From Acidobacteriota bacterium (lineage in GTDB: Bacteria > Acidobacteriota > Vicinamibacteria > Vicinamibacterales > JAFNAJ01), in the NCBI GenBank assembly GCA_016789685.1, contig JAEUQQ010000521.1, forward strand, positions 1-33,173: a stretch of 33,173 nucleotides of DNA, written 5' to 3'. Positions 13,699 to 33,173 of this stretch are shown here, piece after piece. Numbering within the stretch: the first letter of the stretch is position 1; the number at the start of each line of letters is the position of its first letter. The notes beneath the pieces were generated by a model, which saw only the letters and a list, made by a program, of their open reading frames with translations, had not been told where the DNA came from and did no database searches. A program made the position numbers and the translations under genes.

Positions 13699-13736
13699 GT
13701 CGCATCCGGGTTCGCGGGCGCGATCCCGCGTCCGAC

Positions 13737-13754: not shown

Positions 13755-13765
13755 CAGACGCCTTG

Positions 13766-15124: not shown

Positions 15125-16524
15125 TGCTGGTTCCGCGCCTCGAACACGGTCTGCGTGAGCGCAAGCGGATCGGGGCACGCGGTGCTGGCCACGGCCTGCT
15201 CGGCGAGATCCACGAGCGCGGGCGCCAGTTGCCGCCACAGCGGCCGCATGGCGTAGACGGCCGCGAGCCTCAACCATGTCGTCGCCAGCGTGAGGCGGTA
15301 GCGCGTCAGGTCGAGGGGCGCGTGTTCGAGGTAGCCGGCGACGAACGTTCGCGCCTGGGCACCCGCGCGGTCGGCATCGACATACCCCTGGCGGGCGCGC
15401 AGCATCAGGTGCGCGACGAAGTTGGCCACGTCGAGTTCCCGGTACGAGGTGCTGGCGGTGTCGAAGTCGATCAACGTGACACCGCCGGGGGTCACGAGCA
15501 CCTGCTTGTCGTAGAAGTCGCGGTGCACGGCGACGTGCGCCGGCTGTCGATCGACCGCTGCCCTCGACAACTGCGCGGCGACACCCGCGGCATGCGCCCG
15601 CACCGCCGCGTCGAGCGACGAGCGTTCGACTGCGCCCCGTGCAACCGCGAGTTCGTCGTGCCAGTCGTGCCTCCGCGCGATTGGCAATGTTGTCGCGTGC
15701 AGTCGCGCGGCGGCGCGCGCGGTCGCCGCCAGGTGCGTTGGGGTGAGCGACCCGGCCCGGAGCGAATCGTACACAGACGTGCCGTCGACATGGCGTTGCA
15801 CGACGAGCCTGACATCGGGCAGGATGCCGACGACGCCGGGCACGCGCGGCCCGACGCCCTCGAGCGCGGCCGCCCACAGGGCCGCCTGCACGTGTCCGCT
15901 CGCCAGATCGTCGTCGTGCACGTAGACCTTGCCGAGCCACGTCTCGCGACCACCATCCGTTGACACGTCGTACCTGATCAGGCAGCGCTTTTCAGGCACG
16001 TAGCGCACGATGTCGATGGCCTCGATCTTCAACGCCCGGTTGCCTGACAGCGCCGAGAGCCGGGGCTGCATGCGCCGCGCGCTGCAGGCTTCGACGAGGG
16101 TGTCGAGGCGGTAGTCGAACGGGAACTCGTGGATGAGCATCCGGTGTTCGGGCACGTAGCGCGCGTATAGCTGGTGCGTGCCCGCCAGGCCCCGGCGACG
16201 CATCCGCCACAGGACCTTCCGCCCATCGTCGTCCGCGAAGAACTCGAACACGAATCGCTGCGCCCTGGCATCGGCCGCCGGCGTGTCGCGCAGGCGCGCA
16301 TCGAGCAGCAGGAAGGCTTTGCCGCGCCTGCCCGCGATGGCGTCGCCGATACGCAGGTCGACCAGTGTCGCCGTCCCGCGAGTGAAGGCGGCGAGCGATG
16401 TCGTGAGCGCGCGGGCGCACTGACCAGGGTCGCTGGCGAATGCGGCCAGCCTCGTCGCGACCGCCGCGGCGTCTTCGCGCGCAACGGCCGCCTGCGTCGC
16501 AGGGCGGAGCACCGACGGCGCCAT
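15121..16524 (-). CDS. APH-fold phosphotransferase
   Basis: A 467-residue protein whose C-terminal half carries an aminoglycoside-phosphotransferase/choline-kinase fold. The catalytic Brenner motif reads HRDFYDKQ, with Asp as base and Gln where Asn is usual for the metal ligand. The metal-binding IDFDTAS follows, then ELDVANFVAHL. The N-terminal half (about residues 1-200) is unusual for the family: it has an AFLLLDARLRD segment and FEFFADDDGRKVLWRMRRRG. The substrate is likely a sugar, lipid head group or glycoside made by the neighbouring glycosyltransferases rather than an antibiotic; this is inferred from context. It starts with an ATG overlapping the ABC transporter stop (ATGA) and ends overlapping the porin start (ATGA). 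Confidence 0.8.
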   Translation of the reverse strand: MAPSVLRPATQAAVAREDAAAVATRLAAFASDPGQCARALTTSLAAFTRGTATLVDLRIGDAIAGRRGKAFLLLDARLRDTPAADARAQRFVFEFFADDDGRKVLWRMRRRGLAGTHQLYARYVPEHRMLIHEFPFDYRLDTLVEACSARRMQPRLSALSGNRALKIEAIDIVRYVPEKRCLIRYDVSTDGGRETWLGKVYVHDDDLASGHVQAALWAAALEGVGPRVPGVVGILPDVRLVVQRHVDGTSVYDSLRAGSLTPTHLAATARAAARLHATTLPIARRHDWHDELAVARGAVERSSLDAAVRAHAAGVAAQLSRAAVDRQPAHVAVHRDFYDKQVLVTPGGVTLIDFDTASTSYRELDVANFVAHLMLRARQGYVDADRAGAQARTFVAGYLEHAPLDLTRYRLTLATTWLRLAAVYAMRPLWRQLAPALVDLAEQAVASTACPDPLALTQTVFEARNQQ

Positions 16525-18362: not shown

Positions 18363-19576
18363 GACAGCGCGTCCTTGCGAATGGCCTGGGTCGTGACCCC
18401 GACGAGTGGTTCGGTGGCGAGCCCGAGGATGCGGCGCGCCCTGGCGTCCCATCCATGCAGGGCGACCGCGTCGGCGCGCGCGGCGCGTCCGAGCGACCCG
18501 GCGAACGATGGGCTCCGCCAGAGGCGCACGAGTGCGCGGGCAAGGTCGTCGACGTCGCCGGGCGCCACGAGGAGGGCGGTCTCGCCATGGCGCAGCAGGT
18601 GTGGCAGGTGCCCGACGCGGCTCGCCACGATGGGGCGTCCCGACGCCAGGTAGTCGTAGACCTTCAGCGGCGAGAAATAGAACCCATCGAGGCGCGGATA
18701 GGGCGCGGTCGCCACATCCATCGATGCGAGCTGGGCCGGTACCTCGCGCTTGGGGACGCTCCCGGTGAACTCGACGACATCGCCGATCCCGAACTCGTGC
18801 GCCATGCGTTCGAGCGAGGCTCGTTCCGGGCCGTCGCCGACGATGCGAACGCCGAGTGCCGGCACCTGCTCGCGCACGCGGGCCGCTGCCGCGATGAGCA
18901 CGTCGACGCCGTGCCAGGGCTTCAGGCTGCCGAGAAAGCCCACGGTGAACGGCCGCCGGCGCTCGCAGGCGGGCGCGGCGGCATAGAGGGCGAGGTCGAC
19001 GCCGTTTTCGACGACGTGCACGCGGTCGGGGGTGTTCGTGTGGGCCCGGACGTGGCGGGCCACGCCTTCCGAGACCGCGACGACCGCCGTGGCCGCCGCA
19101 TAGACCAGCCGCTCGACGCGTTCGGCGCGCAGGGTCCACGCCAGCGAGCGATAACGCTGTTGTTCGTCGCGCAGGGGGCTGTTGACCTCGACGACGTACG
19201 GCAGGCGGTGGCGGCGCGCGAACGCGGCGCCTGCGCGGGTCCACAGCGAGTACCGTTCGTACACGAGATCGAACGGCGAGCGCGCGTGCTCGGCCGCCAG
19301 GCTGGCCATCCACGCGTCGTGCTGCATGACGCAGCTCCACTCACGCTCGCGGACCACATCCTGGGGCCTGCCTGGCACGCCTCGCTCGTCGAGTCCGACC
19401 CGATACACCTCCGCGACGAGATCGTCGCGGTCGCCGTGCCCGGTCCGTGCGGCGAACAGCGCGACGCGGTGGCCGACAGTCGCGAACCCGCGGATCAGCT
19501 CGCGGACGTGGACGGCCGCGCCCTTGTCGCCAAGGACCGGGATGCCCGGGTCTCCGCACACGTAGGCGATGCGCAT
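18347..19576 (-). CDS. Glycosyltransferase, GT4-type (GT-B fold)
   Basis: A 409-residue cytoplasmic enzyme that transfers a sugar from a nucleotide donor. The N-terminal acceptor domain opens with RIAYVCGDPGIPVLGDKGAAVHV, the Gly-rich GT-B start. The C-terminal donor domain contains TVGFLGSLKPWHGVDVL, RIVGDGPE and the GT4 EX7E-region equivalent FYFSPLKVYDYLASGRPIVAS, where Ser-Pro-Leu-Lys replaces the first Glu, as in one GT4 branch. It starts at an ATG that shares one base with the preceding stop (TGATG). Sugar and acceptor are unknown. With the next-upstream glycosyltransferase it suggests at least two successive additions. Confidence 0.92.
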   Translation of the reverse strand: MRIAYVCGDPGIPVLGDKGAAVHVRELIRGFATVGHRVALFAARTGHGDRDDLVAEVYRVGLDERGVPGRPQDVVREREWSCVMQHDAWMASLAAEHARSPFDLVYERYSLWTRAGAAFARRHRLPYVVEVNSPLRDEQQRYRSLAWTLRAERVERLVYAAATAVVAVSEGVARHVRAHTNTPDRVHVVENGVDLALYAAAPACERRRPFTVGFLGSLKPWHGVDVLIAAAARVREQVPALGVRIVGDGPERASLERMAHEFGIGDVVEFTGSVPKREVPAQLASMDVATAPYPRLDGFYFSPLKVYDYLASGRPIVASRVGHLPHLLRHGETALLVAPGDVDDLARALVRLWRSPSFAGSLGRAARADAVALHGWDARARRILGLATEPLVGVTTQAIRKDALSWHVE

Positions 19577-20778
19577 CACAGCCTCGCCTCGCTGCGGCGG
19601 ACCCGGCTGTGGGCGCGCGCCCGCGGTCGCGTGTCGTGCCGGGCACGCTCGAAGTAACCGGCCAGCGTCGCGACATTGGTGTCGAGGTCGAACCGGTGCT
19701 CGACATCGGCGCGTGCGGCGGCCGCGAAGCTGGCGCGCGTCTGCGGCGCGGTGAGCAGCGTGTCGATGGCGCCGGCGAGCCAGCGCGGCGAACGCTGTGC
19801 GACGATGCGCCCGCTGACGCCGTCGCGGATCATCTCGGGGATGCCCGTGACGTCGGTCGAGACGACGGGCAGTCCACTCGCCATGGCCTCGAGCAGCACG
19901 GTCGGCAGGCCATCGCGGTTGCCGTCGGCCCCGACGACGCACGGCAGGGCCATCAGCGTGTGCGTCTGCATCAGCGCGATGACCTGGTCCTGGGGCTGTG
20001 CGCCGGTCAGCGTCACGGCGTCGAGCAGTCCCCGCTCGGCGATGCGCGCGCGAAGTGCAGCGTCCTCTTCCCCGGTGCCGACGAGGGTGAGATGTGCCGG
20101 CCGTCCCTCCTGCCGCAGGAGGGCGACGGCGTCGATCAAGTCGCCGAAGCCCTTCTTCTCGACGAAGCGTCCGACGCCGAGGACGCGCGACGGCAGGCGG
20201 CCCTCCTGGCCCACGAACGCGAACCGGGTGAGGTCGATGCCGTTGTACAGCCGTCGCAGGCGGGGGGCGACCTCGCGGCCACAGGCCTCGACCAGGTGCG
20301 CGACGTTGTGATCGCTCACCGTGATCGTGAACGCGCTGTCGAGGATGGCCGCGCGCACGGTATTGAAGTCGACCGACTCGTGGTAGATGTCCTTGGCGTG
20401 CGCGGTGAAGCTGTACGGGATGCCCGTGAGGTGGCGCACCTCGCGGGCGAGCACGGTGGCGCCGGTGGCGAAGTGCGCATGCAGGTGTGCGACGCCGCGG
20501 GCCCGTGCCTGGTCGGCAACCCAACTGGCCTGCCAGTGCTGGCGCGACGGCATCGCGAGGTGCGCCTGCGCCTCCTTCGGCGCCTTCGGCACGTAGAGCA
20601 CCTCTGCGCGCAACTGCGCGAGCGCGGGATGCGTGGTTGGTTCGTCGGGACGCCCGAGGGCAAAGACCGTCACCTGGTGGCCGAGGCGCTCGAGCGCGAG
20701 CAGTTCGTGCAGGATGAAGGTCTCGGAGAGCCGTGGAAAGCGCTTGAGCACGTAGCCGAGATGCAGGGGGCGAGTCAT
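19576..20778 (-). CDS. Glycosyltransferase, GT4-type, WcaL-like
   Basis: A 400-residue GT-B enzyme. The N-terminus HLGYVLKRFPRLSETFI is the hallmark of the colanic-acid-type WcaL/AmsK group. The donor domain has VLGVGRFVEKKGFGDLIDA, LVGTGEED and the EX7E motif in GLPTVLLEAMASG, then VVSTDVTGIPE. The start is ATG at 20778, one base after the upstream stop (TGACATG); the frame extends ten codons more, but only through the upstream gene. The C-terminus is Arg-rich (HDTRPRARAHSRVRR). The donor sugar cannot be predicted. Confidence 0.92.
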   Translation of the reverse strand: MTRPLHLGYVLKRFPRLSETFILHELLALERLGHQVTVFALGRPDEPTTHPALAQLRAEVLYVPKAPKEAQAHLAMPSRQHWQASWVADQARARGVAHLHAHFATGATVLAREVRHLTGIPYSFTAHAKDIYHESVDFNTVRAAILDSAFTITVSDHNVAHLVEACGREVAPRLRRLYNGIDLTRFAFVGQEGRLPSRVLGVGRFVEKKGFGDLIDAVALLRQEGRPAHLTLVGTGEEDAALRARIAERGLLDAVTLTGAQPQDQVIALMQTHTLMALPCVVGADGNRDGLPTVLLEAMASGLPVVSTDVTGIPEMIRDGVSGRIVAQRSPRWLAGAIDTLLTAPQTRASFAAAARADVEHRFDLDTNVATLAGYFERARHDTRPRARAHSRVRRSEARL

Positions 20779-20779
20779 G

Positions 20780-21979
20780 TCAGGCTCCGATGGCCGTCCG
20801 CATCGCATGCGAGTTGCGCACGAGATCCGAGACGACGCGCAGGCCGCTGAACCTGAGCGGCAGGGGCTGGAAGGCGCGGCCGTCCAGGGCCTCGTGGACG
20901 GCGCTCCAGAGGGCAGAGGGCGTCAGGTCGTCGGGATGCACCACGCGGACCAGGCCGAGGTCGGCCATGCGCGAGCACCGAATCCACTGCTCGAGACGCG
21001 GCGCCACGCGGGGCACGATCACCGCGGGCTTCCGCAGCGCGAGAATCTCGCACATCGTGTTGTAGCCCCCCATGGCCACGACGACGTCGGCGGCGGCCAT
21101 GCACGACGTGAGGTGATCGCAGTAGTCGAGCAGCGTCACGTCGCGACGCACTCCATAGCGCTGGCGCACGGCCTGGCGATCGGCCTCGGGCATGTCGGGC
21201 CCGAGCACCACGAGGTGGTGCTGCGTCCCCGGCCTGGTGCTCGCCACGCCGCGGAGGTAGGTATCGACGAGGCGCGCCCCGTCGCCGCCGCCGTCCACCG
21301 TGACCAGGATGAGCCGGTGACCGTGCGGCGCGAGCCGGCGCCTGACTTCGGCAGCGGCCGCGACGTCGATGCCGCGCTCGATGTACCCGGCATACTGCAC
21401 CTTGTCGGCGACCCTGGCCGGCAGGTCGTACTCGCGCACGAAGTCGAAGACCTCGGGCATGCCGTAGACCAGGATGTCGTCGTAGTAGCGGTCCAGTGCC
21501 TCGTGCACGCCCTGCCGCTTCCACGCCTCGATGACCTTGCCCGGCTCGTCGACGATGTCGCGCATCGTCAGGATCACGTGCGGCCGTGGCCACTGCCTGC
21601 GAAGGTGCTCGAGGGTCCGTCGCAGCTCGCCCATCATGCCCAGCGGCACGTTGTCGACGATGAGCGTCGTCGGGTGGAACGCCGAGGCGGTCGACAGGAT
21701 GATCTGTTCGCGCATCGCCCGAATCGACTCGACGTGCATGTCGAGGAACTTCGATTCGTACCGTTCGTCGGCGACCTTCGTGACCGAAGGCAGCTTCACG
21801 AAGTCGATGCCTGGCGCTGTCCGCAGCGCCTGCATCGATGACGACCCGGTCAGCACGAGCGCAGCGGCTCCGGGGATGTGGCTGGTGAGTGCCTCGCAGA
21901 TCGAGACCGTGCGGCGGATGTGGCCGAGGCCGAAGGTGTCGTGCGAGTAGCAGAGGACGCGGGGGGCGAGTGAGGTCAT
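20780..21979 (-). CDS. Predicted glycosyltransferase of the COG4671/MurG-like (GT28) type
   Basis: A 399-residue GT-B protein. Its N-terminus LCYSHDTFGLGHIRRTVSICEAL contains the Gly-rich loop with a His, as in MurG and in COG4671 proteins. The C-terminal domain has LVTVDGGGDGARLVDTYL and the nucleotide-sugar site ADVVVAMGGYNTMCEILALRKPAVIVPR, the GT28-type signature. It heads the six-gene operon, with about 118 bases upstream before the HAD gene. These proteins often occur beside GT4 enzymes in exopolysaccharide clusters; the reaction is not established. Confidence 0.85.
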   Translation of the reverse strand: MTSLAPRVLCYSHDTFGLGHIRRTVSICEALTSHIPGAAALVLTGSSSMQALRTAPGIDFVKLPSVTKVADERYESKFLDMHVESIRAMREQIILSTASAFHPTTLIVDNVPLGMMGELRRTLEHLRRQWPRPHVILTMRDIVDEPGKVIEAWKRQGVHEALDRYYDDILVYGMPEVFDFVREYDLPARVADKVQYAGYIERGIDVAAAAEVRRRLAPHGHRLILVTVDGGGDGARLVDTYLRGVASTRPGTQHHLVVLGPDMPEADRQAVRQRYGVRRDVTLLDYCDHLTSCMAAADVVVAMGGYNTMCEILALRKPAVIVPRVAPRLEQWIRCSRMADLGLVRVVHPDDLTPSALWSAVHEALDGRAFQPLPLRFSGLRVVSDLVRNSHAMRTAIGA

Positions 21980-22968: not shown

Positions 22969-24738
22969 CTAGTCCTCGTCGTCGATGCGCGTCGCGAGCA
23001 CCGACCCGTCTGACTGCGACACGCCCTTGACCTCGATGCGCATACCCGTCTTGAGCGCCGCGAACGCGCTGGCAGCCTTGCCGCGGTACTCGGTGGCGGC
23101 CGTCACGGTGACCGTGCGGCCACCAACCGTCAGCCTCCCGTTCGCGGCCGAACCGCTCACCGCGGTGATGCTGCCGACGAACTCGACCTCGCTGACGGCG
23201 CCCGTCGGGTCGCTCTCGATCGTGAGGCGCGTCGCGGTAATCGAGCCGTCGGCGGCGCTGGTGCCCTTCACCTCGATGGCCTGACCGGTACGCAGCGTGC
23301 TGAAGCCGACCTCGTTGCCACTGCGGCGGACGACCGTCGCGCCCGTCGTCTTCACCGTGCGCCCGGCGACCGTGAGCGTCAGGCTCGGCGCGCTTCCCGA
23401 CATCGCCGTGAGGTTGCCGAGGAACTCGACCTCGGTTACGACCGGGTTCGTGCCCGTCACCCCGTCTTCGGCCTGGACCTTGCTCGCGACGACCGTGCCG
23501 TTTGCCTCACGGATGCCCTCCACTTCGACCGTCGTGCCGTTCGCCACCGCGGCGCATGTCAGCTTCAGGAAGGAGGTCGAGGCCGTCGTGCGGACCGCGG
23601 TGCCGGCCACCGAGAAGGTCAGCGCAGGGCATCCGCCGCCCAGGCCCACGACCGCGCCGCGGACGTTGACCTGCGCACCGACACCGGGTGCCGGGGTTGG
23701 CGTCGGGGTCGGCGTGGGGATCGGCGTCGGCGTGGGGGTCGGTCCCGTCGCCACGCCGTCCTCGGCCTGTACCTTCGTCGCGTTGATGGCACCGCTGCTG
23801 TCACGCACGCCTTCGACTTCCACCGTGTCGCCAGCGCGCAGGTCTGCGCAGGTCAGCTTGACGAACGAGGTCGGCGCGGACGTCCGGATGGCGCTACCGG
23901 CGACGTTGAACGAGAGCGAGGGGCACGACCCCGAGATAGCCGACACGCTGCCGCGGACGTTGACCTGCGTCCCGACACCGGTGCCCGGCGTGGGCGTCGG
24001 CGTAGGTGTCGGCGAGGGCGTCGGCACCGTCGCCGCGCCACCAAGGATCTCGATCTGCGTGGCCAGCACGGCGTCGTTCTGCGGCTGTCCCTTGACCTCG
24101 ACGCGCAGGCCGTTCGAGAGGTCGGCGAACGTGCGATGCACGCTGCCTTCCTCGATCTTCGTCGCGCCGGTGGCCTGCACGCGTCGGCCGGCAACTGTCA
24201 GGCTCAGGCCCACGCGGTCGAGGTTGTCCACGATCCCGGTGACGCGCAGTTCCTGTGCGGAGTCGCGCGACAGCGAGACAACGACCGCCGTCGAGCCCGT
24301 GACCGACACCGTCATCGAGATACGCTCCTGGCTGGCGACGCCGCCGATGGCGACGGCCGCGTCGGTGCCCGAGCCGGTGAACCGCAATTGCGCGTCGCCG
24401 CTCGGCACGTCGTCGAAGGCGAAGCCCCCACGGTCGTCGACCGTCTTGACCTGGCCCGTGCCAACGAGTTGCACCGACAGGCCCGATGCCTGCGCGCGGA
24501 TGCCGCTGCCGCCGCCGATGCCCATGACGCTGCCGGTAATCGACGCGCCCTGCCCAGTCGAGGGCGGCGCCGGCGTGGTTGTCGGAGGCGTCGTCGACGT
24601 GGTGGCCGTTGGCGGCGGGGTCGCGGCGGTGGTGCTCGGCGCGAGGGGGTTGCCCTTGCCGCCTCCGCAGGCGACGGTGGTCAGTGCGATGGCCACGACG
24701 GCCGCGAGCGACGAGTGACGGGTGAACGAAGCGAACAT
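22969..24738 (-). CDS. Lipoprotein with five tandem DUF5666-like repeats and Pro-Thr linkers
   Basis: A 589-residue exported lipoprotein. The signal peptide ends in the lipobox TVAC with Cys24 as the lipidated residue, then a Thr/Pro-rich tether (residues 30-62). Residues 64-160 form one beta-rich domain. Five repeats of about 70 residues follow at roughly 163-231, 257-327, 356-426, 436-509 and 517-588; each is an OB/beta-barrel-like unit with a SVSAISG-type start, an LTVAGRTV-type core and a VEVKG-type end, matching DUF5666 by pattern. Repeats 2 and 3 each have a Cys pair 25 residues apart and are flanked by poly-(Thr-Pro) linkers. The start has GGGAG seven bases upstream. Function is unknown; cell-surface display is likely. 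Confidence 0.85.
   Translation of the reverse strand: MFASFTRHSSLAAVVAIALTTVACGGGKGNPLAPSTTAATPPPTATTSTTPPTTTPAPPSTGQGASITGSVMGIGGGSGIRAQASGLSVQLVGTGQVKTVDDRGGFAFDDVPSGDAQLRFTGSGTDAAVAIGGVASQERISMTVSVTGSTAVVVSLSRDSAQELRVTGIVDNLDRVGLSLTVAGRRVQATGATKIEEGSVHRTFADLSNGLRVEVKGQPQNDAVLATQIEILGGAATVPTPSPTPTPTPTPGTGVGTQVNVRGSVSAISGSCPSLSFNVAGSAIRTSAPTSFVKLTCADLRAGDTVEVEGVRDSSGAINATKVQAEDGVATGPTPTPTPIPTPTPTPTPAPGVGAQVNVRGAVVGLGGGCPALTFSVAGTAVRTTASTSFLKLTCAAVANGTTVEVEGIREANGTVVASKVQAEDGVTGTNPVVTEVEFLGNLTAMSGSAPSLTLTVAGRTVKTTGATVVRRSGNEVGFSTLRTGQAIEVKGTSAADGSITATRLTIESDPTGAVSEVEFVGSITAVSGSAANGRLTVGGRTVTVTAATEYRGKAASAFAALKTGMRIEVKGVSQSDGSVLATRIDDED
23686..23742 (-). repeat. Thr-Pro linker microrepeat, second copy
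   Basis: Encodes (Pro-Thr)n with one Ile interruption at residues 333-351 of the lipoprotein; a shorter sister copy lies at 23986-24024. Such linkers are extended and flexible in secreted proteins. The six-base periodicity makes the region prone to length change. Confidence 0.8.
23986..24024 (-). repeat. Thr-Pro linker microrepeat, first copy
   Basis: Encodes PTPSPTPTPTPTP at residues 239-251 of the lipoprotein, between the first and second repeat domains. It is the sister copy of the linker at 23686-23742. Confidence 0.8.
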
Positions 24739-24994: not shown

Positions 24995-27900
24995 CTACTG
25001 CGGGGTACGCGAGAGGGGGGTGGCGAGCGCGTTCGACCCGGCGGCCCAGTGCTCGGCGCCAGCGTCGTTGTACATCGCGCGTTCGACGACGAGTTCGACG
25101 GGCGTTGCCCCCGAACTCTCGACCAGGACGGCGTACCGCCGGCCCGCCGTGAGCGACGAGAAGGCCGCGTCGACCTGCGGGTTGACGTTGAGGCGCGCGC
25201 TGCGGCCGATGCCGTAGGTGCCGACGGCCGTCGTGCCGTCCTCGAACAGCAGCGTGACCCTGACCTGGCCGTCATGCGGCGACGTGTTGGCCACGAGCAC
25301 GTAGGTCTCGGTGGCGTGCACGCCACCCGATTCGCCCTCGGCGAGCAGCCAGCGCGTCGACGTCTGGTCAGATGCGGCGCTGGCGTGCGCCTCGTGCCAT
25401 GTTGCCGGCGAACCCGGCCACCACAACGCGCGCTCGACCACCACGGGCACGCCGTTCTTGACGCGCACGGTCGTCGAGACGGCCGTGTTCGAGAGGATGG
25501 CGCGTTCGGCATCGGTCGCGCCCTCGAAATCGACCCAGACGTTGTACCGGCTCGCTGGCGGAATTCGCTTCTCGGTCACGATCGTCGTGCCGTCGGGCAT
25601 CAGGAACGTGACGTCGGCGATGGCCTCGACGGTGCCGGGATTCGCGATGAGGACGAAGGTGTCGAAGTACGGCCCCGTCGAGCCCTCGGCGAGGAACCAC
25701 TCGAGTTGCGGCGACGTGATGCCAGCGCCTTCGTGCCCAGCCGAGAACGTGCCGGCGGCGCCCGACTTGTAGAGCGCCCGCTCGACGTAGATCGGCGCAC
25801 CGTCGAGCGACGTGACGATCGCCGAGACGTCGGCAGCGCCAAGTTCGGGCCGGCCGATTCGCACAGCTTCCTGGTTGACCCAGATCGTGAAGCGGCTCGC
25901 CGCGGGCACCTGGTACGTCACGTCGATCGGCGGGGCCGGGGCGGGCCTGAGGTAGGTCACCCCCACCGTCGTCGCGCGCGTGCCGGGATTCTGCACCAGG
26001 TAGAAGAGGTCGAGGCCCGAGTGGGTCGCGCCCTCGGCCAGGTACCACGTCGTCGCGGCCGTCGCCGTCATCGCGCGCTCGGCGGTGCTGCCAGAGCCGT
26101 GTCCCCAGGTCATCGCACGATCCACGACGACGTCCTCGTCAGACTCGACGGCCGTCGAGAACTCCGCCTCGGCGAGTTCCGGGTAGTCGCGGCGCACGTC
26201 GACCGTCCGGCGGGTGCGAGGCCCCACCAGCACGACCTTTCGAATCGTCTGGCCATCGTCGCGCTGGAAGCGCATCTGCACATGGGCGATGGCCGCGCCG
26301 GGATTCGCGATCGCGACCCGGGTGTCGAACGACAGCGCCAGGCCAGTCGCGCCCTCGGCCAGGAACGACTTCGCGAACCCACGCGGATGCGTGCCGTCCA
26401 CGAGCACTTCCTGGACGTTGGTGCGTCCATCGCCGTCATCGTCGCGCGAGCGGTCGTCGACGAGCGGGTTCAGGCCGAACTCGAGCTCCCGGTCGATCGG
26501 CACGCCATCGAGGTCGTCGATGGCCTCGGGGTCGGCGCCGGGATTCGCGGCGAGGAAGTCGGCCAGCAGGCTCGCACGCAGGAAGTCGACGCGCCCCTTG
26601 CCGAGGCCGTCGCCGGCGAGGTCGATGGCATCGCGCAGGGCCTCGGTCACGCGGTCGGCTTCGGCGACGGCCGCGGGCGTGCCCGTCACGGTCGCTGGCG
26701 AGACGAGCAGGGCGGCGCCGCCGGTCACGACCGCGGTGCTGAACGACGTGCCCCAGACGGCGGCATACGCGCCCTTCGGGAAGGTCGTGATGATGGCCTC
26801 GCCCGGAGCGGCGACCTCGAAGACCTTGTCGCCGAAGTTCGAGAACGAACTCCGCGCGTCGGCATCGGTCGTCGAGCCCACCCCCAGCGCGTGCGAATTC
26901 GCGGCCGGGAACACGTCTGTCTCGAGGCCGTCGTTGCCTGCCGACGCGACGCAGATCACGCCACGCGCCTCGGCGTAGTCGAGCGCGCGCTTGAGTTCCT
27001 TGAACTCGGTCGCGACGCTGAAGCTCATGTTGATGACCCGCGCGCCGTGATCCACCGCGTAGTAGACCGCGTCGATGATGTCGTAGATCGACGACGACCC
27101 GTCGGCCCTGAACGCCTTGAGCGGCATGATCCTGGCGCCTGGGGCCACGCGGCGGATGAGGCCGGCGACCATCGTGCCGTGGCCGAACGCCGCGGGGATC
27201 GCCTGCTTGTCGGCCTCGAGGATGGCCGCGGTCGATTGCTCGAGAATCGCGGCCGTCGACTGGTTGAGCAGCGCCTGAGACGCGCGACCCTCGAGGATGG
27301 CGGCCGTCGACTGTTCGAGGATGGCGGCGGTGGACTGCTCGAGGATCGCCGCCGTGGACTGTTGCAGGTCGAGCAGTTCCGACGGCGTGCCCGCGGTGTC
27401 GCGCGTGAAGTCGTAGCCCTCGACGAGCGCCCCGGCGAAGATCGGATGCGTCGGATCGATGCCGGTGTCGATCACGGCCACGATGCCCGCGCCGCGGCGG
27501 CTGAGCGCATGCGTCTCGTCGACCCGCGTGATGGTCATCGCCGGCTGGTTGGCGAAGCGGCTCCAGACCTGGAGCCCGGCAAACGGGACGAGCGTCTTCT
27601 GCTTGAGGGTCTCGAGGATGGCCGCGGTCGACTGGTTCAGCGCGGCCGAGACGCGCGCCTCGGGCAGCGCCAGTCGCTCGTTGCGCTCGAACGTCTGGAC
27701 GACACCGATTTCGTTGGCGGTCACGAGCGCCTCGAGGTCGTCGACCGCCCGGCCCGTGCTGTCGATGACCACGAACAGGTCGGTCCCGAGTTGGCGCGTC
27801 TGGTCGAGCGTCAACTCGTACGTGGCGAGAATCCTGGCCAGCTGGGCGGGCGCCACCCTCAGGAGGTACTCCTGCGGCGCGCCGTCGTCGGCACGTGCGG

Positions 27901-28006
27901 GGACGGTGCCTGAGGCCAGCGCCAACAACGCGAGGACGGCGGGCACCAGCGTGCGCCATCGCGCGCGCGACGATCGACCGGCACCCGTCAACAGGCTACG
28001 CATCAT
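24995..28006 (-). CDS. Secreted S8 (subtilisin-like) serine peptidase with QSTAAILE repeats and LAEGxTG repeats
   Basis: A 1003-residue exported protease. A signal peptide (about residues 1-39, ending ARA before DDG) precedes a propeptide-like region (40-165). The catalytic triad is Asp180 (AVIDTGIDPTHP), His276 (FGHGTMVAG) and Ser421 (WGTSFSTA), with the oxyanion Asn in SAGNDG. Asp to His is 96 residues, against 32 in subtilisin; the insertion holds five copies of QSTAAILE, and a sixth lies in the propeptide (125-132). A calcium-binding-type DDDGDGRTNVQE stretch follows near residue 520. Four repeats starting with LAEGxT/S (about 546, 654, 770, 886) resemble DUF5719-type surface domains. The ATG at 28006 overlaps the zinc-finger gene end by 11 bases; 28003 is an alternative. 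Confidence 0.9.
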   Translation of the reverse strand: MMRSLLTGAGRSSRARWRTLVPAVLALLALASGTVPARADDGAPQEYLLRVAPAQLARILATYELTLDQTRQLGTDLFVVIDSTGRAVDDLEALVTANEIGVVQTFERNERLALPEARVSAALNQSTAAILETLKQKTLVPFAGLQVWSRFANQPAMTITRVDETHALSRRGAGIVAVIDTGIDPTHPIFAGALVEGYDFTRDTAGTPSELLDLQQSTAAILEQSTAAILEQSTAAILEGRASQALLNQSTAAILEQSTAAILEADKQAIPAAFGHGTMVAGLIRRVAPGARIMPLKAFRADGSSSIYDIIDAVYYAVDHGARVINMSFSVATEFKELKRALDYAEARGVICVASAGNDGLETDVFPAANSHALGVGSTTDADARSSFSNFGDKVFEVAAPGEAIITTFPKGAYAAVWGTSFSTAVVTGGAALLVSPATVTGTPAAVAEADRVTEALRDAIDLAGDGLGKGRVDFLRASLLADFLAANPGADPEAIDDLDGVPIDRELEFGLNPLVDDRSRDDDGDGRTNVQEVLVDGTHPRGFAKSFLAEGATGLALSFDTRVAIANPGAAIAHVQMRFQRDDGQTIRKVVLVGPRTRRTVDVRRDYPELAEAEFSTAVESDEDVVVDRAMTWGHGSGSTAERAMTATAATTWYLAEGATHSGLDLFYLVQNPGTRATTVGVTYLRPAPAPPIDVTYQVPAASRFTIWVNQEAVRIGRPELGAADVSAIVTSLDGAPIYVERALYKSGAAGTFSAGHEGAGITSPQLEWFLAEGSTGPYFDTFVLIANPGTVEAIADVTFLMPDGTTIVTEKRIPPASRYNVWVDFEGATDAERAILSNTAVSTTVRVKNGVPVVVERALWWPGSPATWHEAHASAASDQTSTRWLLAEGESGGVHATETYVLVANTSPHDGQVRVTLLFEDGTTAVGTYGIGRSARLNVNPQVDAAFSSLTAGRRYAVLVESSGATPVELVVERAMYNDAGAEHWAAGSNALATPLSRTPQ
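27215..27361 (-). repeat. Five-copy octapeptide repeat (QSTAAILE) inside the subtilase domain
   Basis: Five 24-base units lie at 27338-27361, 27314-27337, 27290-27313, 27239-27262 and 27215-27238, the last two separated from the first three by 27 bases. All encode the identical peptide Gln-Ser-Thr-Ala-Ala-Ile-Leu-Glu, although the DNA copies differ at several synonymous sites (Ser TCG or TCC, Glu GAG or GAA). Identical protein with diverged codons points to selection on the peptide. Confidence 0.9.
27611..27634 (-). repeat. Sixth, separate QSTAAILE copy in the propeptide
   Basis: The same octapeptide, preceded by LN, at residues 125-132, about 90 residues before the main array and upstream of the catalytic Asp. 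Another copy in the array (residues 249-256) is also preceded by LN. Confidence 0.9.
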
Positions 28007-28652
28007 CGCGCCGGGGCCTCGATCTGCCGTGCGCCACGACGGTCGACAGGTCGATGTCGATTCGTCGCTGGCCGCCATCGACGGCGATGCTCAACTGACC
28101 GGCGCGGCCGGCAGGGCAGTGCACCTGGAACTCGCCGAACTCGTTGCAGGTCGTCTGTGCGACCAGTGCCTCGTCGAGGAACAGCGCGACGGGCGCGTTG
28201 GCGGCCGACGGCGTCGACCCGTCACGGGCCTGCACCTGCCCGACGAGCCACAGGTCGCGGGCATCACGCTCGCGCTGCACGCGCAGGTCGATGGCGTAGT
28301 CGCCCGCCTCGAAGGCCACCTGGCGAGGGGCCGCGGCGGCTGCTCGCACGCCGGCCGGCAGCGGCTGCGCGAGGCTGTCGGCGACGAGCTGGGCGAACAG
28401 CCGCGGCAGCTCGCGCCACGTGGTCGCCGCAGACACCGGGAAGATGGCCTTGGCGAGCCTGACGACGGCGGCCGGGGGGGCCTGGTCGGCCTCGGCGGCG
28501 GCAAACGACATCATCGTTTCAGCCACGGTCAGGCTGCGTCGGCACGCGTCGCACCCCGTGTCGAGGTGCACCTGCATCGCCGTTCGGGCCGTTGGGTCGA
28601 CCAGGCCGCGCGCATAGTCGGTCCACGCCGTGATGTCGAAGTGTTGCGTCAT
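27996..28652 (-). CDS. zf-HC2-like zinc-finger protein, probable anti-sigma or regulator, without membrane segment
   Basis: A 218-residue protein. Residues 1-45 resemble the anti-sigma zinc-binding domain, with His29, Cys34 and Cys37 in HLDTGCDAC; spacing is H-X4-C-X2-C, one residue more than the usual H-X3-C-X2-C. Residues 46-135 are helical and Ala-rich. Residues 140-205 form a beta-rich domain (DLWLVGQVQARDG, FLDEALVAQTTCNEFGEFQVHC) like a carboxypeptidase-regulatory/prealbumin-type Ig-like fold. No transmembrane helix is seen, unlike typical membrane anti-sigma factors. It lies after the TPR-CHAT gene and overlaps the subtilase. The ATG at 28652 is preferred over a longer frame to 28718. 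A role controlling the nearby sigma factor is inferred. Confidence 0.65.
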   Translation of the reverse strand: MTQHFDITAWTDYARGLVDPTARTAMQVHLDTGCDACRRSLTVAETMMSFAAAEADQAPPAAVVRLAKAIFPVSAATTWRELPRLFAQLVADSLAQPLPAGVRAAAAAPRQVAFEAGDYAIDLRVQRERDARDLWLVGQVQARDGSTPSAANAPVALFLDEALVAQTTCNEFGEFQVHCPAGRAGQLSIAVDGGQRRIDIDLSTVVAHGRSRPRRDDA

Positions 28653-28733
28653 GGGTCTCTGGGAAACCGCGCCAGGCGGTCTGTCCTTCACTGGTAGAGG
28701 GGACGGTCGCGTGAACAAAATATAGGGCGCGCG

Positions 28734-28775
28734 AAAAAACTACGACGCGGGCGCCCGGGCCCCGGGCCCGGCGCC
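28734..28775 (-). terminator. Hairpin plus T6 at the 3' end of the TPR-CHAT gene
   Basis: On the minus strand the last codons of the CHAT gene form an 11-pair stem (GGCGCC and GGGCC arms, one bulged base, 28750-28775). After the TAG stop comes TTTTTT (28739-28734). The T-run starts 10 bases from the stem, too far for a textbook terminator, so partial termination or attenuation is more likely. A TATATT box follows before the zinc-finger gene. Confidence 0.4.
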
Positions 28776-31628
28776 GCCGACGAGCACATAGGGGGCCCAG
28801 AAGAAGGGATGGGGATCCCGCTCGCGAGCCGTCCGCATGGCCCCGCGGAGGGCATGGGCCAGGTTGTCGGTGGTGCCGCCAGCACGGCGGTAGAAATCGG
28901 CCATCAGCGCGGCCGCCGACTCGTCGTGCGCGTCCCAGAGCGTCACCAGGACGGCCTGGGCGCCAGCGTACAGCAAGCCCCGCGTGAGGCCGATCAGGTC
29001 GTCGCCGCCGGTCACGACACCGAGGCCGGTGCCGCAGCCGCTGAGCGTGACGAGGTCGGCAGACAGGTGCAGCTGGTAGAGGTCGAACAGCGTCAGGTCG
29101 CCGTCGGCAAGGCGGATCGACGAGAACATCGGGTTGTCGTTGCGGAAAGTGCCGTGCGTCGCGATGTGGATGGTCTGGCAGGCCGGGCCCGCCTCCCTGA
29201 GGGCCGCCGCCGTGGCGTCCTCGCCCAGCAGCACCCGGGCGCCGGGGCGCGTGGCCGCGACGGCGCGAACCTCGCCGGGAATGGCCGGCGTCGCGTCGTC
29301 GCTGACGCCCATCACCAGGAGGCCCTGCCCCATCCCGCGTGCGCGCGTCGCGCAGGCGTGCCAGACGCTGGCGCTCGGGGCGTACGACAACGACCACCGG
29401 TCGAGGACCCAGCCCTGCGCGTCTCGCAGCGCGTGGACAGGAATTGCGTGCAGCACCCCGTGCGGGACGACGACCAGGTGGCTCGCCGCGCCGAGATGGC
29501 GGGCAATGGGATCGATCAGCAGGGCGCCGAGCCGCCTGAGGTGCGCGTAGACGGCGTCGAGGCCCGCGCTGGCCATGGGCGGGCGCTGTGACGCCAGGCG
29601 GTGACGTGACAGCTGGAACTGCAGTAACCGCCACGCTTCGTGCACCGCGGCCATCGGTCCCAGTCGATCGACGGCGATGCCTCCGAGGCCAATCGTGACC
29701 GCGATCAGCGTGCCCCGGGTTTCGTAGTATTCGACGAGCACCGTGTCGGCGGGCATGCGGGCGCGGATGTCGTCGAGCGGCACGCTGCGGCCCGTGTGCA
29801 GCGCGACATAGTCGGAGCCTGCTGGCATCGACTGGAACACCTCGACCAGCGCACCTTCGCAGTCCTGCGCCTCGCGCCGGAGTCGCGCGAGCCTGGCGCC
29901 GTCGTCGCCGGGCACGGCCTCGGCGCGGGCGATGTCGCGCTGCACCCCGTGCAGGCGGGCACGCAGATGCCGTAGCTGGTCGCGGACCTCGTCGCCGACC
30001 GTCGCCGGGGCGGTGAGCAGGTGCGCCTGGGCCGACATGGCGTCGGCGAGGCTCCGCGCCTTGGCGCGTTCGATCCACGCGAAGGTGTCGGCGATCGGCA
30101 GCGGCGGCGGCAACTCGAGGCCGAGCCAGACGAGGCTCTCGAAGACCGCCTGCTTGTTGTCGAGGAATGCCGCACGCAGGTCGTGGTGGTGGAGCCGGCC
30201 GCGCAGGTCGTCGATGCAGCGCGCCGCGCGCTGCCATTCGGCCCTCGCGCGGTGCAGCCGCCCGGCGGCCTCCTCGATCTGCGCGAGCGTGACGTGCGCG
30301 TCGTACCGCAACGCCGGCAGCGCGTCGCCGATGCGCCCGATGACGGCATGGCAGCGATCGCGCGCCGCGTCGTGCGCGTGCCGCCTGACGTCGAGCCGGG
30401 CGAGCAGCAGGTCGGCGAGCGCGAGTTTCGACACGGCATCGGTGACCACGAAGGTCGCGCGCGCTGCCTCGCAGAGGCGACGGGCCAGGCGGGGACGCTC
30501 GGCCTCCATGGCGAGCGCGAGGTGGAGGTCGATGAGCGCCGGCCACAGGACATTGCGCTCGGCGACGAAGAGGCGGCGCGCGATCCGGAACCGCCGGATG
30601 GCCAGTGCCGCCTGCCCCCGGCGTCCCTCGGCCACGCCGAGCAGGGCCAGCGCCTTGGCACGTTCGTAGCCGAGGCCGAGTGTGCGGAACTGCGCGCCGG
30701 CGCGCTGCGCGAGGCGCGCGCCTTCATCGACGAGGTTGAGTTCGAGCGACAGTTCGGCGCGGTCGAGATCGCACAGGGCAGCGTGATAGTGGTCGCCTGC
30801 CGCGAGGGTCCGTGCGCGTGCGACCCGGTACAGCTCGATCGCCTCGGCGTAGTCGCCGCGCATGAAGAACAGGTAGGCGATGTTGTAGTCGGCCTCGGCG
30901 ACCAGCATCGCCAGGCCGTGCTGCTCGCACCAGCTGCGCGCCTCGCGGTAGGCCGCGAGCGCCTCGTCGAACGCCGCGCGCGAAATCTGGCAGACGGCAA
31001 GGTTGCGCAGCGCGATGGCCACGTCCTGCGTGGCACCCGCTGCCCGGAATGCCACGAGCGCCGTCGTGTACTGGGCGAGCGCCTCGTCCAGCCGATCCTG
31101 GCGGTAGAGGACGTTGCCGACGTTGGTCGCCAGGCGTGCCAGGCGCAGGTCGTCGCCGGCGGCGCGGAACGCGGCGCGTGCCTCGGCGGCCCATGCAAAG
31201 GCGTCGTCGTAGCGCCCGAGGTAGATGAGCGTCTGCAGGGCGCCGCTCTGCGTGATGGCCCGCTCGAGGGGGGCGTGCGCGTCGTCGAAGCGGGCCAGCG
31301 CCGCCGTGTACGCCGCGAAGGCGTCGGCGAAACGGTTCTGCAGGGCCAGGATGTGGCCCTGCGCGCGGAGGACGCGCCCCAGTGCCTGCGGATCGATCGC
31401 ACGCGCGGCCGCCTGGCGGGCCAGGTCGGCCAGCGCGCTCGCCGTCTCGAGGTCGACGCGGGCGTGCGCCGTGGTGGCCTCGGCCAGGGCCAGCGTCAGG
31501 GCGTCGATCCCCGCGGGATGCCCGGCCAGCAGGCGGTCGAGGGCCTCGCGGCGTTCGCCGGCCGGCCGCTGCAGCAGGGTCGCCACGGCGCCGCGGGCAT
31601 CGTGCGACGCCTGGTCAGCGGATGACAT
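28740..31628 (-). CDS. TPR-CHAT domain protein (caspase-like cysteine protease)
   Basis: A 962-residue cytoplasmic protein. Roughly residues 60-480 are tetratricopeptide-like helical pairs (LGRYDDAFAWAAEAR, QDRLDEALAQYTTALVAFR, RGDYAEAIELYRVARAR). The C-terminal third is a CHAT peptidase domain of the caspase-separase clan, with the catalytic dyad His825 in IHIATHG and Cys865 in TLSGCGTG, and the usual DLVTLSGC context and GLLYAGAQAVLVTLWD. CHAT proteases cut specific partner proteins when their sensor part is triggered. The start is ATG at 31628, inside the end of the sigma factor gene (14-base overlap). A zinc-finger gene and a subtilase lie downstream. The substrate is unknown; an anti-sigma-like partner is the natural candidate. 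Confidence 0.9.
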   Translation of the reverse strand: MSSADQASHDARGAVATLLQRPAGERREALDRLLAGHPAGIDALTLALAEATTAHARVDLETASALADLARQAAARAIDPQALGRVLRAQGHILALQNRFADAFAAYTAALARFDDAHAPLERAITQSGALQTLIYLGRYDDAFAWAAEARAAFRAAGDDLRLARLATNVGNVLYRQDRLDEALAQYTTALVAFRAAGATQDVAIALRNLAVCQISRAAFDEALAAYREARSWCEQHGLAMLVAEADYNIAYLFFMRGDYAEAIELYRVARARTLAAGDHYHAALCDLDRAELSLELNLVDEGARLAQRAGAQFRTLGLGYERAKALALLGVAEGRRGQAALAIRRFRIARRLFVAERNVLWPALIDLHLALAMEAERPRLARRLCEAARATFVVTDAVSKLALADLLLARLDVRRHAHDAARDRCHAVIGRIGDALPALRYDAHVTLAQIEEAAGRLHRARAEWQRAARCIDDLRGRLHHHDLRAAFLDNKQAVFESLVWLGLELPPPLPIADTFAWIERAKARSLADAMSAQAHLLTAPATVGDEVRDQLRHLRARLHGVQRDIARAEAVPGDDGARLARLRREAQDCEGALVEVFQSMPAGSDYVALHTGRSVPLDDIRARMPADTVLVEYYETRGTLIAVTIGLGGIAVDRLGPMAAVHEAWRLLQFQLSRHRLASQRPPMASAGLDAVYAHLRRLGALLIDPIARHLGAASHLVVVPHGVLHAIPVHALRDAQGWVLDRWSLSYAPSASVWHACATRARGMGQGLLVMGVSDDATPAIPGEVRAVAATRPGARVLLGEDATAAALREAGPACQTIHIATHGTFRNDNPMFSSIRLADGDLTLFDLYQLHLSADLVTLSGCGTGLGVVTGGDDLIGLTRGLLYAGAQAVLVTLWDAHDESAAALMADFYRRAGGTTDNLAHALRGAMRTARERDPHPFFWAPYVLVGGAGPGARAPAS

Positions 31629-32193
31629 CGCCGAGCAGCTTCTGCAGCTTCTGGAGGCAACGCCCCCGGATGAAGCCAATCGACCCGACCGCGAGGTTCA
31701 GGTGACGCGCCAGGTCGGCGTACGCGATGGGCGGCTGCGTGAAGAACAACAGGCGGATCATCTCCTGGCAGCGCGGGGTGAGCTGTGCGACCGCCTCGCG
31801 GATCGACTGCTCGCGTTGCACCGTCTCGAGGACGTCGGCCTCGGGCGGCGCCGCCGCCACGTCCGTGTCTTCGTCGAGCGGGGTGCCCTCGCGCTCGCTC
31901 CGCTTCACGTATCGCCGCTTCCAGTGGAACGCGTGATGTGACGCCACCGTCAGCAACCACGCCCTGAGGCTCGCCACGCTCCGCAGCTTCGGCAGCTCGT
32001 TGTAGAGATCGACGCAGACGGACTGGAACACATCGGCCGCGTCGTCGGGCGACATCCGGTACTTGCGCGGCACCGAGTAGACGAGGTTCTTGTACTTGTC
32101 GATGAGCGCCGACCACGCCTGCTCGTCGCCTGCCAGGCACGCCGCCACGAGGCGGTCGTCGTCCCACGTCCGCGAGGGTGTGCCGATCGTCAT
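31615..32193 (-). CDS. RNA polymerase sigma factor, ECF-like
   Basis: A 192-residue two-domain sigma factor. Region 2 spans about residues 15-95 (LVAACLAGDEQAWSALIDKY, DVFQSVCVDLYNELPKLR, LRAWLLTVASHHAFHWKRR); the Trp-Lys-Arg-Arg end is the -10-binding helix. Region 4 (about 130-188) has a helix-turn-helix, PPIAYADLARHLNLAVGSIGFIRGRCLQKL, that recognises -35 elements. The linker is acidic (DEDTDVAAAPPEAD). The ATG overlaps the solute-binding gene stop (ATGA), and the end overlaps the TPR-CHAT start. Longer in-frame sequence upstream is a shadow of the solute-binding gene. It is likely autoregulatory for this operon, which cannot be shown from sequence. Confidence 0.93.
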   Translation of the reverse strand: MTIGTPSRTWDDDRLVAACLAGDEQAWSALIDKYKNLVYSVPRKYRMSPDDAADVFQSVCVDLYNELPKLRSVASLRAWLLTVASHHAFHWKRRYVKRSEREGTPLDEDTDVAAAPPEADVLETVQREQSIREAVAQLTPRCQEMIRLLFFTQPPIAYADLARHLNLAVGSIGFIRGRCLQKLQKLLGDVIR

Positions 32194-33173
32194 CGCCGAC
32201 GCTCGCGTGCTCGCGCGGTCGTCCAGAACAGTTCGTCGGCGTTCCACAGCGTCGGGTGATCGAGCGCCGCAGGGCGCAGGTTGCCAAGCTCTGGCGGCGC
32301 CGCCACCAGCAGGTGCGGGGTTACGAGGGGCACCATGGCCACGTGTTCGTGGGCGATCGCCTGCACCCGGTCGAACAGCGCCTTGCGGCGCGCCGGGTCG
32401 AGCGTCTGGAACTGCTGGTCCATGAGCTGATCGATCTCGCGTTCCCACGGCGTCGCGGGCGCGGCCTGGTCAGGATGCCACAGGTGCGTCGGGCCGCTCG
32501 ACTTCCAGACGTTCACGTCGGCCGCAGGGTCAGCATCGCCGCTCGCAAGACCGAGGACGCAGGCGTCGTAGTCGAACGTGCGCGTCACCCGATCGAGCAG
32601 CGCGCGGAACTCGAGCGGCACGACGTCGATCTGCATGCCAAGCTGGGCGAGATCCTGCTGCACGATCGTCGCCATCTGCTGGCGTTGCTGGTTGCTGGCG
32701 GCGACCGCGATGGTGAACCGCACGGGGCGGCCCGTTGCGTCGTGCAGGACGCCGGCGCGCCACGTGAACCCTGCCGCGCCCAACTCGGCGCGGGCGCCGG
32801 CGATCGAACGCGGCCTCTCGGGAATCGCAGTGTTGTACCAGGGGCGATTCGCCGGCGAGAGCAGCGACCAGATCGGTCGCGCCTTTCCCTGGTAGACGAG
32901 CCGTGCCATGCCCGGCCGGTCGACGGCGTGCGCCACCGCGCGCCGGAACCGCACGTCGGCGAACCAGCCGCGGCGGGCCACGACGTCGGGCGAGGCCGCG
33001 GTCGGCACCGGGGTCAGGTTGAAGAACAGGAAGTTGAAGTCGAGCGTGGGCCCGGCATCGACGATGCGCGCCTTGCCTGCCATCGACTGCGTGAGCGCGC
33101 CCGCCGTTGCGGGCGTGATGCGCGTCAGCAGGTCGAGTTCGCCGGCCTGGAACCGCACGGCCTGCGCATCATC
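32190..33173 (-). CDS. ABC transporter substrate-binding protein, family 5 (C-terminal part, 5' end outside window)
   Basis: The last 327 codons of an SBP_bac_5 (peptide/nickel/oligopeptide) binding protein; the frame is open to the window edge, so the signal peptide and first lobe are missing. Characteristic blocks are VRFQAGELDLLTRI, FNLTPVPTA, RFRRAVAHAVDRPGMARLVYQGKA and the second-lobe DYDACVLGLASGDADPAADVNVW. It ends AMVPLVTPHLL and then an Arg-rich tail. Such proteins deliver peptides or other solutes to an inner-membrane permease, or act as sensors. Here the stop overlaps the start of a sigma factor gene (ATGA), an uncommon neighbour for this family. No permease is visible in the window. 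Confidence 0.9.
   Translation of the reverse strand, partial: DDAQAVRFQAGELDLLTRITPATAGALTQSMAGKARIVDAGPTLDFNFLFFNLTPVPTAASPDVVARRGWFADVRFRRAVAHAVDRPGMARLVYQGKARPIWSLLSPANRPWYNTAIPERPRSIAGARAELGAAGFTWRAGVLHDATGRPVRFTIAVAASNQQRQQMATIVQQDLAQLGMQIDVVPLEFRALLDRVTRTFDYDACVLGLASGDADPAADVNVWKSSGPTHLWHPDQAAPATPWEREIDQLMDQQFQTLDPARRKALFDRVQAIAHEHVAMVPLVTPHLLVAAPPELGNLRPAALDHPTLWNADELFWTTARARERRR

Follow-up and report, generated by a model that had tools for sequence, protein, structure and literature searches.

A candidate peptide-signalling module of Acidobacteriota: tandem octapeptides of a secreted subtilase covary with the TPR groove of a sigma-linked CHAT protease

Background

Intracellular peptide quorum sensing with tetratricopeptide repeat (TPR) receptors is known from Bacillota. 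Here we describe a module of five genes from the genome of a soil bacterium of the Acidobacteriota (assembly GCA_016789685.1), found on contig JAEUQQ010000521.1, positions 1 to 33,173 of the forward strand; this whole stretch of 33,173 nucleotides is called the window. The genes encode an oligopeptide-type solute-binding protein, a sigma factor of the extracytoplasmic function (ECF) type, a TPR-CHAT protease, a soluble zinc-finger protein and a secreted subtilase with six copies of the octapeptide QSTAAILE. Comparison of related loci suggests that the octapeptide is recognised by the TPR groove of the CHAT protein, and that the module may be a peptide-signalling circuit.

In the RRNPPA systems of Bacillota (Rap, PlcR, PrgX, NprR, Rgg and others) a cytoplasmic TPR receptor takes a short linear peptide on its concave face, where a conserved Asn holds it; these systems also include an oligopeptide transporter and secreted proteases maturing the propeptides (PMC3601957, PMC11343458, PMC4873490). 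Rap binds the Phr peptide in extended form on the concave side of its TPR domain, and Asn227 of RapF is conserved and holds the peptide (PMC3601957). In two phage Rap-Phr systems the pheromone is known to occur in tandem copies matured by extracellular proteases (PMC11343458). A similar mode of binding is proposed for the module, which likewise has a linked oligopeptide-type transporter and a secreted subtilase. However, its receptor is fused to a CHAT protease, with only TPR and CHAT recognised by Pfam, in place of a helix-turn-helix or Rap-type effector; the peptide is part of the subtilase, being absent from the rest of the loci, and is not encoded by a small propeptide gene; the output would be an ECF sigma/anti-sigma pair; and the phylum is Acidobacteriota.

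The second relevant system is Craspase (type III-E CRISPR: Cas7-11, the TPR-CHAT protein Csx29, Csx30 and CASP-sigma), in which CHAT cleavage of Csx30 relieves the inhibition of CASP-sigma (PMC10028731). As in the module, a TPR-CHAT protein is encoded near an ECF sigma factor and a soluble protein that inhibits it, in the module putatively. However, the CHAT protein of the module falls outside the Csx29 family (NCBIfam NF041237, 41.4 bits against a cut-off of 300) and shares only its fold class. The putative inhibitor is a zinc-finger protein of the zinc-binding anti-sigma (ZAS) type with a carboxypeptidase-regulatory-like domain, and the proposed trigger is a peptide, not a target RNA. The module genes include no recognised Cas gene, and the window showed no tandem array of the CRISPR kind; the flanks of the relatives were not searched systematically.

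The N-terminal H-x4-C-x2-C region of the zinc-finger protein matches the solved domains of Class I (ZAS) anti-sigma factors such as RslA, RsiW and ChrR. Unlike these, the module protein is soluble, with no apparent transmembrane segment, carries an extra beta domain, and has a linked CHAT protease in place of regulated intramembrane proteolysis. The subtilase shares its fold, triad and prodomain with secreted subtilisins that have an I9-like prodomain (pro-subtilisin E, Tk-subtilisin), but differs in having tandem octapeptides that are conserved and are placed behind the prodomain and within an insertion that separates the catalytic Asp from His. The input of the module would resemble RRNPPA quorum sensing and its output Craspase, yet it lacks features that define these two systems. 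No description of the module or of the repeats was found in the literature covered, most subscription journals and preprints being outside that coverage.

Results

The module genes lie head to tail on the minus strand in the following order. The first gene, cut by the window end, encodes the C-terminal part of a family-5 (oligopeptide/nickel type) ATP-binding cassette (ABC) solute-binding protein, SBP_bac_5 (32190..33173; PF00496, E 4e-34). It is followed by the ECF sigma factor of 192 amino acids (31615..32193; PF04542, E 3e-10; sigma70-ECF, E 8e-20), the TPR-CHAT protease of 962 amino acids with no apparent signal peptide (28740..31628; PF12770, E 2e-59), the zinc-finger protein of 218 amino acids with a C-terminal carboxypeptidase-regulatory-like domain (27996..28652), and the S8 subtilase of 1003 amino acids, consisting of a signal peptide, a prodomain, a catalytic domain and a C-terminal repeat domain (24995..28006; PF00082, E 4e-38). 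The binding protein and sigma genes overlap by 4 bases, sigma and CHAT by 14, zinc finger and subtilase by 11, and an 87-base gap separates the CHAT and zinc-finger genes. The original prediction, made from this sequence alone, had given the five genes, the overlaps and the gap exactly; the transporter binding protein was absent from its title and the six repeats went unremarked.

The zinc-finger protein was searched in 100 related genomes, and the nine good relatives have the same neighbours in all cases, as far as the contigs reach. An alignment of the CHAT proteins was scanned against 84,980 species genomes, and the best 80 homologous loci were taken (all loci are denoted below by L with a number); they are from Acidobacteriota without exception. 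The genomes are mostly draft metagenome-assembled ones, and the counts for each gene use only loci with enough sequence. The sigma gene adjoins the CHAT gene in 71 of 73 loci, the zinc-finger gene is present in 55 of 61 and the subtilase in 48 of 52. The peptide-type binding protein directly precedes sigma in 50/59 loci, and the order sigma, CHAT, zinc finger, subtilase is kept in 43/49. More of the transporter is seen in L048, with two BPD_transp_1 permeases before the binding protein, and in L080, where sigma, CHAT, zinc finger and subtilase are preceded by a double ABC ATPase, by two permeases, of which one has OppC_N, and by the binding protein. Co-conservation of the sigma, TPR-CHAT and zinc-finger genes had been set as a test beforehand and held across the phylum. 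Since the genes are co-conserved this widely, the first finding that the original prediction had named as speaking against it, a lack of such co-conservation, was not made.

In the window subtilase, QSTAAILE occurs once directly after the prodomain (27611..27634) and five times in the insertion between the catalytic Asp and His, three copies in tandem at 27290..27361 and two at 27215..27262, all on the minus strand. At least two identical octamers are present in 77 of 82 module subtilases. The number of copies ranges from 2 to 17, the maximum being the up to 17 near-identical copies of L068, and 32 versions were observed, including QSTASILD, QSTVAFLD, QRTVAVLD, QHTAAMLD, QETTPILD and QSLQPILE. 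When the copies within one protein were compared (73 non-redundant proteins, 506 pairs), only 2 pairs were identical in DNA; the proportion of differing synonymous sites (pS) is 0.65 and that of non-synonymous sites (pN) is 0.025. The residues are alike but the silent sites are near saturation, and thus every lineage holds on to a peptide of its own under strong selection, all copies changing together. The same saturation rules out recent slippage or gene conversion as the source of the repeats.

In eight loci (L064, L066, L086, L092, L104, L112, L115, L148) two subtilases of one locus, tandem paralogues, share the octamer. With subtilases excluded, it was not found in any other gene of its locus, be it CHAT, zinc finger or neighbours, where it could have been, for example, a CHAT cleavage site. 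In the source genome the repeat occurs in this module only. The AlphaFold2 model of the subtilase gives the repeat loop a predicted local distance difference test score (pLDDT) mostly below 60.

Octamer-to-octamer distances were correlated with those between segments of the other proteins of the module, with the rest controlled for (partial r). TPR residues 60-260 of the CHAT protein gave a partial r of 0.57 in 48 modules and 0.51 in 62 modules; for TPR residues 261-500, the middle part, the CHAT domain, sigma, the zinc-finger protein and the binding protein r was between -0.37 and 0.09. When the octamers were permuted, a procedure that ignores phylogeny, none of 2000 permutations reached the observed value (maximum 0.22). 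A control of the same phylogeny, the subtilase catalytic domain against TPR 60-260, gave r 0.13. The segment and catalytic-domain controls rule out covariation as a general property of the operon.

A scan of 1302 single columns in four proteins produced CHAT residues 282, 205, 202 and 125 as the top columns for peptide positions 2, 4, 6 and 8, respectively. For position 2 and residue 282 r is 0.99, the next column having 0.50. All four residues are on TPR helices A. The covarying residues of the proposed groove are 125, 202, 205, 208 and 282. For peptide positions 3, 5 and 7 the top column is elsewhere. Position 2 follows residue 282 in all 66 cases: Ser with His (52/52), Glu with Arg (2/2), His with Val or Ile (6/6), Arg with Gln (6/6). 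At position 4, Val goes with small residues 205 (A/G/S, 24/24) and Ala with large ones (I/V, 23/25); at position 6, Ile goes with Asp or Asn202 (31/31) and Val or Met with Gly (29/32); at position 8, Asp or Asn goes with Arg125 (52/54) and Glu with Ile, Leu or Val (11/12). The order 8-6-4-2 along TPR residues 125-202-205-282 fits an extended peptide in which every other side chain points down, and both charge and size compensate.

Changes of peptide and receptor were also placed on a tree built without the first TPRs, residue 205 being classed by size and residues 202 and 125 classed as well. They fell on the same branches in 4 of 4 cases for residue 282 (p 6e-7), 8 of 9 for 205 (1.5e-9), 3 of 4 for 202 (1e-5) and 4 of 7 for 125 (1e-4), all p values being uncorrected. 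In six modules that had been left out (L148, L149, L152, L088, L096 and the first module of L066) the pairing rules predicted 21 of 22 residues. A nearest-pair test was also positive for the TPR region, but it is confounded by divergence (the zinc finger and the CHAT domain drift in the opposite way) and is not part of the main evidence. Given the covariation, the residue tables, the same-branch changes and the left-out predictions, recognition of the octapeptide by the TPR region is the best supported new claim of this analysis, and strongly supported as far as sequence comparison goes.

The proposed groove corresponds to the TPR helices of residues 71-330 (30639..31418, minus strand), as suggested by the covariation, by helix positions and by a profile alignment to Rap proteins. 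The AlphaFold2 model of the TPR-CHAT protein (mean pLDDT 86.7) is a long TPR superhelix with a CHAT domain, and helices A lie at 120-129, 160-176, 200-216, 240-256 and 280-296. The TPR profile aligns to RapF and RapJ nearly without gaps. The conserved Asn172, Asn209 and Asn249 sit on helices A; to judge from the end points of the alignment, Asn209 may be the equivalent of RapF Asn227, give or take a residue or so. The nearest folds to the model are separase and the Craspase protease Csx29. The comparison with the latter, made in the original prediction, is thus upheld by profile and by fold. In the CHAT domain (28776..29540, minus strand) Cys865 (29036..29034) is invariant and His825 (29156..29154) nearly invariant among 53 homologues.

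In the zinc-finger protein H29, C34 and C37 are invariant in 10 homologues and at least 90% conserved in 72. The N-terminal region gives weak profile matches, at the expected place, to 3hug (E 0.011), which we take to be RslA, and to RsiW 5wuq (0.017), DdvA 8rlz (0.57) and ChrR 2q1z (1.2). Among the 72 homologues, 19 match zf-HC2 (best 1.9e-5) and 22 match CarboxypepD_reg, the C-terminal domain. This zinc-binding His/Cys motif, in a domain homologous to solved anti-sigma factors, bears out the proposed anti-sigma type of the protein, which, to judge by the adjacency of the genes, may bind and inhibit the sigma factor. The sigma factor itself was said to have both regions: region 2 is clear, whereas region 4 is weak in Pfam (13 bits), though the whole protein matches sigma70-ECF.

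In the subtilase a signal peptide is followed by an I9-like prodomain and a catalytic domain; the AlphaFold2 model of the protein has a pLDDT of 85.5, and its top fold matches are unautoprocessed pro-subtilisins. The triad Asp180, His276, Ser421 is invariant in 10 module subtilases and, like the CHAT dyad, intact as predicted. The C-terminal domain of about 500 residues (24998..26536, minus strand) is optional, being absent from most module subtilases examined (L044, L046, L048 and others). No Pfam model matched it, and there are 88 matching places in the source genome, in dozens of other proteins, the best about 45-56% identical. It looks like an expanded surface or sorting module.

The gap between the CHAT and zinc-finger genes contains a promoter-like bipartite element, CCTATATY-N17-CCCY (28698..28726, minus strand), upstream of the zinc-finger gene. 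The core of the element is shared by 33 of 69 such gaps of related loci, against at most 3 shuffled gaps. In 1.48 Mb of related loci most sites are 48-141 bases before the zinc-finger gene start as defined by a hidden Markov model; others precede a glycosyltransferase gene (L090, L091) or a response-regulator-like gene (L077). The source genome has three exact sites, one here (28726..28698) and two (C611:1877 and C633:1586) that precede genes of predicted secreted proteins, one of these proteins being small and one a TolB-like propeller protein; a reversed control in this 6.17-Mb genome gave 0-2 matches with up to one mismatch. As a consensus match only, the element suggests that the zinc-finger and subtilase genes are driven by the sigma factor, as may be genes for surface polysaccharides.

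Candidates for the latter are downstream of the module, on the same strand. The glycosyltransferase gene at 20783..21979 (PF04101, E 3e-11) is a possible regulon member; the gene preceded by the element in L090 resembles it at the start. A second glycosyltransferase gene is at 19579..20808 (PF00534, E 6e-35). Directly downstream of the module is a gene for a predicted lipoprotein with five DUF5666 repeats (22969..24738).

A second, remote type of module, which is frequent elsewhere in the phylum, has its genes in the order sigma, zinc finger, CHAT, subtilase and keeps both residues of the CHAT dyad. In many of its subtilases (L154-L194) the prodomain is immediately followed by tandem peptides of other sequence, for example two copies of QRSVAFVD, three of QTSQAFID or two of GRSWAI. 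They form two classes, Q-x-[SG]-x-A-F-[VIL]-D and G-x-S-W-[AS]-I. The source genome (777 contigs) has eight CHAT matches; the flanks of six of the seven other CHAT loci were read, and no sigma, zinc-finger or repeat-bearing subtilase partner was found within the stretches read.

Several individual observations are worth recording. In L066 two complete modules stand side by side (1941-8103 and 9363-19464), with different octapeptides, QSTVSLLN in 13 copies and QSTVAFLD, as expected for orthogonal channels. In L049 the sigma gene follows the subtilase, the subtilase has no clear repeats, and TPR residue 282 is Leu; both sides of the proposed pairing appear to have changed together. The L068 module, the one with 17 octapeptide copies, has a sigma-54 activator with a receiver domain between the CHAT and zinc-finger genes (L068:7780-9243). 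Residues 211-250 of the binding protein (32424-32543 of the window, minus strand) form a secondary peak of covariation with the octapeptide (r 0.31). They could be its ligand loop, but alignment to the solved NikA did not settle this, and no claim is made.

Discussion

We consider it fairly probable that the module is a self-contained peptide-signalling circuit, in which a self-encoded octapeptide acts on the TPR-CHAT protein, this on the anti-sigma protein and that on the sigma factor. The conservation of the cassette, the selection on the repeats and the proposed octapeptide/TPR pairing are strongly supported by sequence evolution, and the identities of the anti-sigma factor, protease, transporter and sigma factor are supported by homology. 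We infer the release of the peptide and its exact length, its import, activation of CHAT by it, cutting of the zinc-finger protein, release of the sigma factor, the identity of the promoter and any role of population density.

The circuit could operate as follows. The subtilase would be exported with its inhibitory prodomain, and on maturation the subtilase itself or another protease would excise the copies of the octapeptide. With the TPR-CHAT and zinc-finger proteins in the cytoplasm and an exported subtilase, contact between the peptide and the TPR region is possible only by re-import or before export; re-import is favoured because an oligopeptide-type transporter is linked. The octapeptide, here QSTAAILE, would re-enter the cell through this ABC transporter, whose binding protein is the first gene, and would lie extended in the N-terminal TPR groove, with the C-terminus near residue 125 and the N-terminus near residue 282. 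By analogy with Craspase, the CHAT protease turned on by the peptide should cut the soluble zinc-finger protein and free the sigma factor. The latter would then transcribe from CCTATATY-N17-CCCY, including the element before the zinc-finger and subtilase genes. The result would be positive feedback together with a restored brake and, in some relatives, expression of glycosyltransferase genes.

Several observations weigh against this circuit or some of its supports. In L049, L153, L170, L190 and L191 the genes are kept and the repeats are not visible. The binding protein is missing beside the module in 9 of 59 loci and is often absent in the remote type; hence import by that transporter is not proven. 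The covariation at the level of segments has a phylogenetic component. In the same-branch test some residue classes were set after the data had been seen, and the pair of residue 125 and position 8 is not ranked first when the tree test is made without classes. Many of the 22 residues predicted in the left-out modules have high base rates, His282, for instance, occurring in 79% of the training set.

The missing binding proteins also fit a different scheme, in which the TPR-CHAT protein binds the repeats of subtilase not yet exported and thus gauges the level of the protease or the state of export, with neither re-import nor a signal between cells. It explains the peptide-TPR covariation equally well, and both proteins are made in the same cell. 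However, it leaves aside the peptide-type ABC binding protein encoded directly before sigma in most loci, and the places of the repeats, behind the prodomain and in a loop modelled with low confidence, are favourable for processing. Moreover, with 13-17 copies in tandem, the repeats of L066 and L068 resemble a precursor of many peptide copies. We regard this scheme as rather unlikely.

Covariation indicates recognition and not its result. Thus the repeats might instead dock the pro-subtilase on the TPR region as a substrate or partner that CHAT processes, the anti-sigma arm being separate; Csx29 does recognise its substrate Csx30 directly (PMC10028731). However, Csx30 is bound by the CHAT2 domain rather than by the TPR groove (PMC10028731). 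The subtilase, having a signal peptide, should act outside, whereas the TPR-CHAT protein has none, and the number of repeats varies from 2 to 17. Such docking seems very unlikely.

Hardly more can be said for repeats with a structural or self-processing role, that is, octamers that stack or serve as autocleavage sites, correlated with the TPR region through shared ancestry. Stacking needs like copies, the first copy is at the prodomain junction, and the phylogeny of the module is correlated throughout. But the low pLDDT of the repeat loop does not suggest a stacked structure, the catalytic domain of the subtilase shares the same ancestry and correlates far less with the TPR region, residues 282 and 205 change on the same branches as the peptide, and the pairing predictions hold in the left-out modules. 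We find this slightly harder still to accept.

Least probable of all is the scheme of the original prediction, in which an unspecified signal of stress, predation or conflict leads to cutting of the zinc-finger protein and release of sigma, the repeats being irrelevant to sensing: gene order, anti-sigma homology and CHAT chemistry fit it, but the position-specific covariation of the repeats with the TPR groove is left unexplained.

Much of that interpretation is retained in the octapeptide circuit, namely the co-conserved genes, the anti-sigma homology and the likeness to Csx29; what it missed was the likely input, the octapeptide, and the oligopeptide-type transporter. Sensing through the TPRs is retained as well, since the TPR region covaries with the octapeptide residue by residue, whereas the unspecified signal gives way to a self-encoded peptide. 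The subtilase can no longer be seen as a mere output, as it carries the tandem octapeptide that covaries with the groove. The octapeptide may be a pheromone passed from cell to cell, or it may inform the cell about its own protease.

Conclusions

If the circuit is right, it is a new kind of bacterial peptide signalling. It seems more probable than not that it represents peptide communication across the phylum Acidobacteriota, with a secreted protease serving also as the multi-copy precursor of the pheromone, and with a receptor that is itself a protease and frees a sigma factor; effector and signal gene would both differ from those of RRNPPA. CHAT proteases would gain a CRISPR-independent trigger that can be synthesised and added in vitro, and the protease-to-sigma output of Craspase would be one case of a wider design. 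The pairing of peptide positions 2, 4, 6 and 8 with TPR residues 282, 205, 202 and 125 would be a recognition code at the level of residues, testable in vitro. Matched by their receptor residues, the 32 octapeptide versions would amount to a set of orthogonal signal-receptor pairs that can be read, and the remote type would add further classes of peptide. An abundant, hard-to-culture soil phylum would have its own TPR peptide quorum sensing, built from a CHAT protease and a sigma factor, and this would give a handle on the communication of Acidobacteria in soil.

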